Assembly (NCBI RefSeq): GCF_023702125.1
Contig: NZ_CP098415.1
Location: 186,001 to 250,000, forward strand
Direction: 5' to 3'
Length of the DNA stretch: 64,000 bases
DNA from: Halorubrum hochsteinianum
GTDB taxonomy: Archaea; Halobacteriota; Halobacteria; Halobacteriales; Haloferacaceae
Positions within the stretch are counted from its first letter, which is position 1. Each line of letters starts with the position of its first letter. This document shows positions 13,173 to 60,483 of this stretch, piece after piece. The notes beneath the pieces are model-generated. The model made no database searches, was not told the DNA's origin, and saw only the letters and a program-made list of their open reading frames with translations. Position numbers and translations under genes: made by a program.

Positions 13173-13378
13173 ATGGGGCCGGAGGGATTATGAACCTCGG
13201 TCGCTGTCGCTCCCTGATTCAAATCCCTCCTCGGCACCTCACCGGCGCTCGCGAGTTGCTCGCGACGGTGGAAAATGGGGCCGGAGGGATTATGAACCTC
13301 GGTCGCTGTCGCTCCCTGATTCAAATCCTTCCTCGGCACCTCACCGTCGCTCGCGACGTTGCTCGCGACGGTGAAAAA
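13173..13378 (-). repeat. two tandem tRNA-Trp tail units
   Basis: Two imperfect direct repeats, 13173-13274 (102 bp) and 13275-13377 (103 bp), abut the tRNA-Trp gene on its 3' side. In the tRNA direction each unit has a hairpin (CACCG/CGGTG arms), an inverted T-arm (GGAGGGATTTGAA), a purine-rich spacer with AGCGA repeats, then GGTTCATAATCCCTCCGGCCCCA, the tRNA-Trp T-arm plus acceptor 3' strand with one inserted base. They lack the 5' half of a tRNA. Confidence 0.85.
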
Positions 13379-13553
13379 TGGGGCCGGAGGGATTTGAACC
13401 CCCGATCGACTGATATCTCCGGTGCGCCTCGGAACTCCAGAGGGTCGTCAACACGACCGATGATCAGTCGGCCGCTCGGTATATCAGTCTGGAGTGTCGT
13501 CCCGGGCGCGAGCCTCTGGAGTCAGTCGCCATGCCTGGCTTGGCCACAGCCCC
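13379..13553 (-). tRNA. tRNA-Trp (CCA) with 101-nt intron
   Basis: Exon 1 is 13516-13553 (38 nt), the intron 13415-13515, exon 2 13379-13414 (36 nt); the spliced tRNA is 74 nt without CCA. The acceptor GGGGCTG pairs with CGGCCCC (one G-U), the anticodon loop is CTCCAGA (anticodon CCA), and the T-arm is GGGGG/CCCTC. The splice sites form a bulge-helix-bulge: CTCC/GGAG as the central helix, bulges AGA and ATA, cleavage between positions 37 and 38. The intron holds two guide segments upstream of CCGA box D-like motifs, as known for haloarchaeal tRNA-Trp introns acting as box C/D methylation guides for C34 and U39. Confidence 0.95.
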
Positions 13554-43173: not shown

Positions 43174-43258
43174 GCGCGGGTTGCCGAGCCAGGCCAAAGG
43201 CGTAGCGCTTAGGACGCTATCCCGTAGGGGTCCGCCGGTTCGAATCCGGTCCCGCGCA
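43174..43258 (+). tRNA. tRNA-Leu (UAG)
   Basis: 85 nt. The acceptor GCGCGGG pairs fully with CCCGCGC, discriminator A. Anticodon stem TAGCG/CGCTA encloses the loop CTTAGGA (anticodon TAG). A class II variable arm follows, with T-arm CCGGTTCGAATCCGG. No intron and no encoded CCA. Its 3' end is repeated in degenerate form three times downstream. Confidence 0.96.
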
Positions 43259-43294
43259 TGCTTCTCCGAGCACTACGCGAGGAGAAGCATCTCC

Positions 43295-43592
43295 GCAGGG
43301 ATTCGAACCCTGTCAGTCGCAGCCCGGGAAGCGAGCGGAGCGAGCGACCCGGAACGTCTGACTCCGGTTCAAATCCGGTCCCGCGCACTAAGCGAAGGGG
43401 CGTAGCGACTGAGCGAGGGAGCAGGAGCGGATTTGTAGCCCAGAGGACGAGCGGAGCGAGTCCTCGCGGTTCGAATCCCGCCCCGCGCATTCTGCGGCGA
43501 GCGATCCGTGAGCCGCAGAAACGCGCTACGGACTCGAAGCAGGGAACGGAGCGAAGCGGAGTGACTGAGGGTCGAATCCGGCCCGACGCGCA
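43295..43592 (+). repeat. three degenerate tandem tRNA-Leu tail units
   Basis: Copies of the tRNA-Leu T-arm plus acceptor 3' strand end at 43387, 43489 and 43592 (real gene ends at 43258), i.e. 129, 102 and 103 bp apart. Each is preceded by a purine-rich AGCGAGCGGAGCG-type hairpin: CCCGG...CCGGG near 43323-43352 and GAGGAC/GTCCTC at 43443-43465. In front of that lies an inverted T-arm (GGGATTCGAACC at 43298-43309, weaker in units 2 and 3). None has a 5' half. The 371-bp stretch up to cheC holds no gene. Confidence 0.82.
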
Positions 43593-60112: not shown

Positions 60113-60410
60113 ATCTGTCGCTACGCGTCCGTGATACATAGCCACACACCTAATATTCCTATGAGTGTATGATCATGTCCGGCCCGAACGGTGGACGAGT
60201 GATCGGATTCATCGACGATAGGTACTATCCGGGCGGGTCGCTGCGGACGAAACGCCGGTGTGCCCACGTGGACCCCGTCCAAGTGGTACGTGTCAGCGGC
60301 GAGCGTTTGAAGAGGTGGACCGGAGACGGAGACCGAGAACCGCGGCCGTGCCGCTTTCCGGACGCAGATCCCTCTCAGAGCTCTTCGACTCGACGCCGTT
60401 CCGTCAGAAG
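60113..60410. other. 298-bp gap before tRNA-Thr
   Basis: CTAATATTCC at 60149-60158 could be a plus-strand box A for an ATG at 60175, but that frame runs on antisense through the tRNA and is Arg-rich. No convincing gene is visible. A minus-strand T-poor region follows the tRNA 3' end. Confidence 0.5.
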
Positions 60411-60483
60411 AGCCGGAGGAGGGATTTGAACCCTCGACCTATTCCTTACGAAGGAATCGCTCTGCCAGCTGAGCTACCCCGGC
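60411..60483 (-). tRNA. tRNA-Thr (CGU)
   Basis: 73 nt. The acceptor GCCGGGG pairs with CTCCGGC (one G-U), discriminator U; D-arm GCTC/GAGC; anticodon stem ATTCC/GGAAT with loop TTCGTAA (anticodon CGT); T-arm GAGGG/CCCTC around TTCAAAT. No intron and no encoded CCA. Unlike tRNA-Trp and tRNA-Leu, it has no tail repeats downstream. Confidence 0.96.

Follow-up and report, generated by a model that had tools for sequence, protein, structure and literature searches.

Short haloarchaeal repeats bounded by the 3' tail of the adjacent tRNA: a candidate non-autonomous family resembling the RtT repeats of Escherichia coli

The nearest known counterparts of the archaeal units described here are the 178-bp RtT/tyrT repeats of Escherichia coli (Rfam RF00391, rttR), which were found in 4680 of 5426 E. 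coli genomes. In strain MG1655 (L277, 1285000-1289000) a 175-bp RtT unit lies exactly between the tyrT tail and TCTCAAGCATTACC, and it is missing from SK1144 (L276). Exact, tail-bounded blocks of this kind thus appear and disappear in E. coli as well. To our knowledge, the origin of the tyrT repeats has not been settled. The archaeal units resemble them in standing in tandem directly behind a tRNA gene, each ending in an exact tRNA 3' tail, in having an upstream arm that pairs with the tail and a purine-rich core, and in the exact presence or absence of whole units. Unlike RtT, the archaeal family occupies many isoacceptors per genome, its tail lacks an encoded CCA, its units measure 98-207 bp, and the number of units and the type of core in its arrays vary among close relatives.

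Integrative elements that target tRNA genes share with the units the exact insertion at the tRNA 3' end and the duplication from the T loop to that end. Integrases are known to use the T loop as one of their crossover subsites (PMC4383910, PMC8371274), and this fits the duplicated segments, which share a start near nt 53. Whereas tRNA-targeted islands (of tyrosine recombinases or archaeal integrases) extend over kilobases, the units are about 100-200 bp long, encode nothing and carry no integrase of their own. Since the Islander catalogue of tRNA-targeted islands rejects candidates below 2 kb (PMC4383910), they cannot appear in it. Compared from general knowledge, REP/BIME elements are likewise palindromic modules with alternating inverted and direct arms in mosaic arrays, but the repeated arm of a unit is the local tRNA tail and not a fixed REP sequence.

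The analysed stretch, here called the window, comprises 64,000 nucleotides (C1:186001-250000) of the 3.06-Mb genome of Halorubrum hochsteinianum (G000). It contains a plus-strand tRNA-Leu gene with anticodon TAG (43174-43258; ARAGORN; Rfam tRNA 48.4 bits), which is followed on the same strand by three units. Unit 1 (43259-43387, 129 bp) consists of a hairpin (43259-43289), an inverted T-arm (43299-43309), a core of type A and a tail copy (43364-43387), and matches the covariance model of the family with 64.4 bits (C1:229300-229376, i.e., window 43300-43376). Unit 2 (43388-43489, 102 bp) consists of a leader, an inverted T-arm (about 43428-43440), the core CCCAGAGGACGAGCGGAGCGAGTCCTCGCGG and a tail copy (43466-43489), and gives a match of 27.4 bits (window 43430-43478). 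Unit 3 (43490-43592, 103 bp) has a hairpin (43490-43520), an inverted arm (about 43521-43540), the core CAGGGAACGGAGCGAAGCGGAGTGAC and a drifted tail copy (about 43567-43592); its core is 97% identical over 37 nt to the first unit behind tRNA-Gln. The tail copies of units 1, 2 and 3 are identical to the tRNA tail at 96%, 88% and 71%, respectively, over 24 nt.

The window holds a second unit-bearing tRNA, an intron-containing tRNA-Trp on the minus strand (13379-13553; Rfam tRNA 44.8 bits), followed on that strand by units of 103 bp (13276-13378) and 102 bp (13174-13275). No units were found behind the tRNA-Thr gene (60410-60483). An earlier note on this DNA had described three tail copies behind tRNA-Leu, and their ends at 43387, 43489 and 43592 were confirmed. 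It had also proposed a period of about 103 bp shared with tRNA-Trp. The last two spacings are indeed 102 and 103 bp, but the first is 129 bp, and the common period does not hold. As the note had stated, inverted T-arm, purine hairpin and direct T-arm plus acceptor follow each other in the same order at tRNA-Leu and tRNA-Trp, and the tRNA-Leu tails have drifted while this order was preserved; an example is the CCCGACGCGCA drift, which is present in the tail copy of unit 3.

All 47 tRNA genes of the genome were located and the DNA downstream of each was read. This survey revealed 22 units at 14 tRNA loci (Met, Trp, Leu-TAG, Gln-TTG, Ser-GGA, Asp, Pro-TGG, Phe, Val-TAC, Leu-TAA, Tyr, Arg-TCG, Ser-TGA and Gly-TCC). 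Their lengths range from 98 to 207 bp with a median of 122.5, which rules out a fixed period of about 103 bp. Identity of the tail copies, anchored at the 3' end, typically extends over 21-24 nt from the T loop to the discriminator base. When each tail was compared with all tRNAs, its own tRNA was the best match in all 22 units, although in one case tRNA-Leu(GAG), which has the same tail, matched equally well; the claim that the tails match the local tRNA thus held throughout. The earlier note had named random periods or foreign tails as observations that would speak against its reading; genome-wide, the periods do vary, but the tails still fit their local tRNA. Tail copies with up to 2 mismatches in 20 nt are common downstream of the 47 genes, and in the 900 bp upstream of them none was found at the same threshold except for the tandem tRNA-Asp gene. 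Chance is therefore not the source of the copies.

At tRNA-Gly(TCC), the tRNA and its two units are 8 kb apart; the units follow a displaced 3' half of the gene, which begins near the anticodon arm. An island of about 8 kb (G000:C1:113207-121490; L014, L003) has apparently been inserted into this tRNA, separating the units from the gene, and their displacement appears as expected from a later insertion of a larger island.

Direct copies of approximately nt 53-73 of its tRNA, from the T loop to the discriminator base, mark both boundaries of each unit, and the palindrome between them has a fixed orientation relative to the tRNA. Most units show a common order of leader hairpin, reverse complement of the T-arm, core hairpin and direct tail; the two tRNA-Phe units fit it worst. 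The leader hairpin opens with a pyrimidine-rich stretch, and in some units the inverted arm also covers the reverse complement of the acceptor. This left arm is tRNA-specific (mean rank of the own tail 10.9 against 23.5 expected, z -4.4). The purine core contains C-GNA-G minihairpins, 33 of them in tRNA sense and 9 in antisense.

A first alignment of 21 type-A cores revealed double changes at four pairs of the core stem. In an alignment of 58 units from many genomes, which was fitted to the covariance model and is hence biased toward pairing, 98.7% of cells were paired compared with 87.3% after shuffling, and the covariation score was 0.363 against 0.149 (0/500 shuffles); changes on both sides occurred at 11 pairs. 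The sliding control, which gave at most 49.7%, and the first, unfitted alignment argue against model fitting as the cause of the pairing. Helix 1, formed by the upstream arm and the tail, was 98.8% paired (alignment A4), and its T-loop pair tracks the base of each tRNA (C-G 30, U-A 21, U-G 4, C-A 3). Moreover, about 32 left-arm transitions in the 58-unit alignment were compatible with wobble pairing and 5 were pair-breaking, although these events are not independent. Such a bias hints that the pairing may act at the RNA level.

Equilibrium folds of read-through transcripts predicted that the 5' acceptor strand of the tRNA pairs with the distal tail whether the inverted arm is intact or scrambled, with the exception of Asp. 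In these folds the distal and not the proximal tail closes the acceptor stem in 10 of the 11 G000 loci tested, even with a scrambled inverted arm. The idea that the left arm masks the unit's own spare tail, keeping it off the 5' half of the tRNA, found no support, since scrambling of this arm hardly altered the predicted pairing.

With respect to RtT, all 22 archaeal units end in the tail of the adjacent tRNA, as do the repeats at E. coli tyrT/tyrV, and their upstream arm pairs with this tail in helix 1. Searching six unit-bearing haloarchaeal loci with the RtT model (cmscan, up to E = 5) gave no match, whereas the E. coli control gave four RtT at 133-137 bits. The archaeal units are thus built like RtT, yet they are not members of it. 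No published description of them was found in a search of the open-access literature.

The covariance model, which was built from a curated alignment of units, matched in 181 of 195 genomes (93%) and in 59 of 66 genera of the haloarchaeal order. In a sample of 148 genomes from the phylum all 22 positives lay inside the order and none outside. Among 28 complete top matches in other genomes, 27 were located 34-150 nt behind a tRNA on the same strand, and at nearly all of these a copy of the own tail ends 11-12 nt past the match; the remaining locus abuts a tRNA on the opposite strand. Matches in G000 (E<1e-3) away from a same-strand tRNA or displaced 3' half were all core-only. Core hairpins without T-arm or tail were observed far from tRNA genes at G000:C1:1902684-1902723, 2035337-2035379 and 2690236-2690278. 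The short core pattern GCGNAGCGAGCACGT was of no use as a probe for the family, its frequency being equal to that of the reversed control, and a direct search of phages and plasmids with array DNA gave no match.

Units at different tRNAs of G000 are also related outside their tails: 43 pairs were found at E<=1e-3 compared with 0-2 in shuffles, and 40 of the 43 have the same orientation. The units of tRNA-Ser(GGA) and tRNA-Asp, for instance, are 88% identical over 86 nt, and both cores and leader hairpins recur at different tRNAs.

Comparison with relatives revealed differences in unit content at most loci. In several genomes of the genus the tRNA-Trp site is empty, with the TAGCGGTCTTCACTCTAACGTAT flank directly after the tRNA as read at these loci; in G000 the same flank begins beyond the second unit. 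Other genomes of the genus carry tRNA-Trp units of 104-112 bp, and a record of Halorubrum xinjiangense also contains one. An exact tail duplication at the tRNA 3' end combined with empty sites in relatives, as known from tRNA-targeted elements, is thus found here as well. Compared with its closest relative (G176), G000 is occupied at Met and Ser(TGA), where G176 is exactly empty, whereas Arg(GCG) is empty in G000 and occupied in G176. G176 has one unit at Leu-TAG, one at Trp and none at Gln, against three, two and two in G000, respectively; the number has also changed at Asp and the core type at Val-TAC and Leu-TAA, and only Tyr and Arg-TCG have kept an unchanged unit. Across the genus, Leu-TAG carries 0-3 units, the set being different in nearly every genome, and the leader hairpins and cores occur in varied combinations (a mosaic judged by inspection). 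In the Leu-TAG array of another relative (L115, G278), units 1 and 3 have the leader hairpin in common and nearly identical cores, unlike unit 2, as if units had been copied past each other.

Some relatives carry between two Trp tails an element of 1.8-2.6 kb with a Phage_integrase (tyrosine recombinase) gene. Such compact elements are located at L087 1299-3138, L089 1373-3760, L090 1290-3550 and, on the minus strand, at L088; those of L087-L089 lie in the same flank as the tRNA-Trp units of G000. The recombinase gene adjoins the distal tail and is interrupted in L087. The elements of L088-L090 each contain one variable extra gene, coding for a DUF2971 protein in L089 and for products without Pfam match in the other two, and in this they look like single-cargo elements. 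In L091, L095 and L102 a unit follows tRNA-Trp and is itself followed by a sequence similar to the left end of an integrase element; the ends of full integrase elements are unlike the units. Two related integrase loci are present in G000 itself, and a resident integrase might mobilise units in trans, but integrase homologues are equally present in genomes that lack units (12/12). Integrase presence is therefore not supported as the determinant of unit presence, and integrases do not explain the distribution of the units.

The units are bounded by the tail of their own tRNA, keep a conserved palindrome, are present or absent as exact modules and share modules between tRNAs. The reading that we favour, with a probability of about one half, is that they form a non-autonomous family of haloarchaeal repeats turned over by recombination at the T-loop/tail. 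We infer that recombination at this duplicated segment is the source of gain, loss and tandem growth. It might proceed by site-specific exchange through tRNA-directed tyrosine recombinases, in line with the use of the tRNA-Trp site by integrase elements of about 2 kb, or homologously, by exchange and slippage between tails of 21-24 bp. Homologous recombination from tail to tail explains losses and tandem growth without an integrase, and exact losses alone could result from ordinary recombination between direct repeats of 21-24 bp. Moving between different tRNAs would require an extra step, because a simple integrase exchange that changes the isoacceptor would produce a hybrid tRNA. The palindrome may be maintained by selection on a single strand, either folded RNA or folded DNA, and the units would be neutral or almost neutral to the tRNA, whose gene is in every case completed by the proximal tail.

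A possible but less probable explanation is that the units represent an RtT-like trailer RNA, i.e., a transcribed and processed hairpin that would be inherited vertically under selection at the RNA level and would change in number through unequal recombination between tails. The RtT architecture with a left arm pairing to the tRNA tail, the orientation fixed to the tRNA sense strand, the excess of wobble-compatible over pair-breaking transitions (about 32 vs 5) and the class-wide distribution would all agree with it. It accounts poorly for a unit content that differs at almost every locus even among close relatives, for core types swapped at the same locus, and for many tRNAs and some genomes having no units; moreover, G-T pairs are tolerated in DNA too. 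The units might also be the smallest known integrase-mobilised elements, comparable to integron attC or the attP of CTX phage: one folded strand would pair the inverted and direct T-arms and rebuild a double-stranded tRNA attachment site, which a tyrosine recombinase would insert at the T loop of a matching tRNA, and enterobacterial RtT would be the bacterial version. We regard this proposal as speculative and rather unlikely.

Transposition of hairpins onto tRNA tails by a Y1-type enzyme (IS200/IS605, REP/RAYT-like), resulting in BIME-like mosaics of modules, would be in line with the presence of two hairpins in a unit, with their fixed orientation, and with modules shuffled among arms that are alternately inverted and direct. 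Since such elements make no target duplication of 21-24 bp, whereas here it is invariably the tail of the local tRNA that is duplicated, this origin is improbable. We also consider it improbable that the units are att scars, that is, remnants of integrated plasmids or viruses which were internally deleted and left one tail at each end. Genuine integrative elements do occupy the tRNA-Trp site with the same tail duplication, and prophages of haloarchaea are known to bring partial tRNA copies (PMC3119063), but internal deletions are not expected to yield one palindromic, covarying anatomy over about 12 isoacceptors and dozens of genera, and the ends of full elements differ from units. Finally, a chance or compositional repeat would agree with the abundance of C-GNA-G hairpins in GC-rich haloarchaea, with the core-only hairpins found at other places in the genome and with a short core pattern equal in frequency to its reversed control. 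The own-tail copies, the covariation, the empty sites and the association with tRNAs speak against it, and the controls on tail specificity and covariation rule it out.

An RtT-like architecture built on the local tRNA, across about 12 isoacceptors and in 93% of the sampled haloarchaeal genomes, makes the question of its origin testable: nature offers both empty and occupied alleles as well as complete integrase elements at one and the same site, and the copies available for alignment number in the hundreds. Should the units prove mobile, they would rank among the smallest known site-specific elements; should they prove to be a functional RNA, they would constitute a class-wide, unrecognised family of trailer RNAs.
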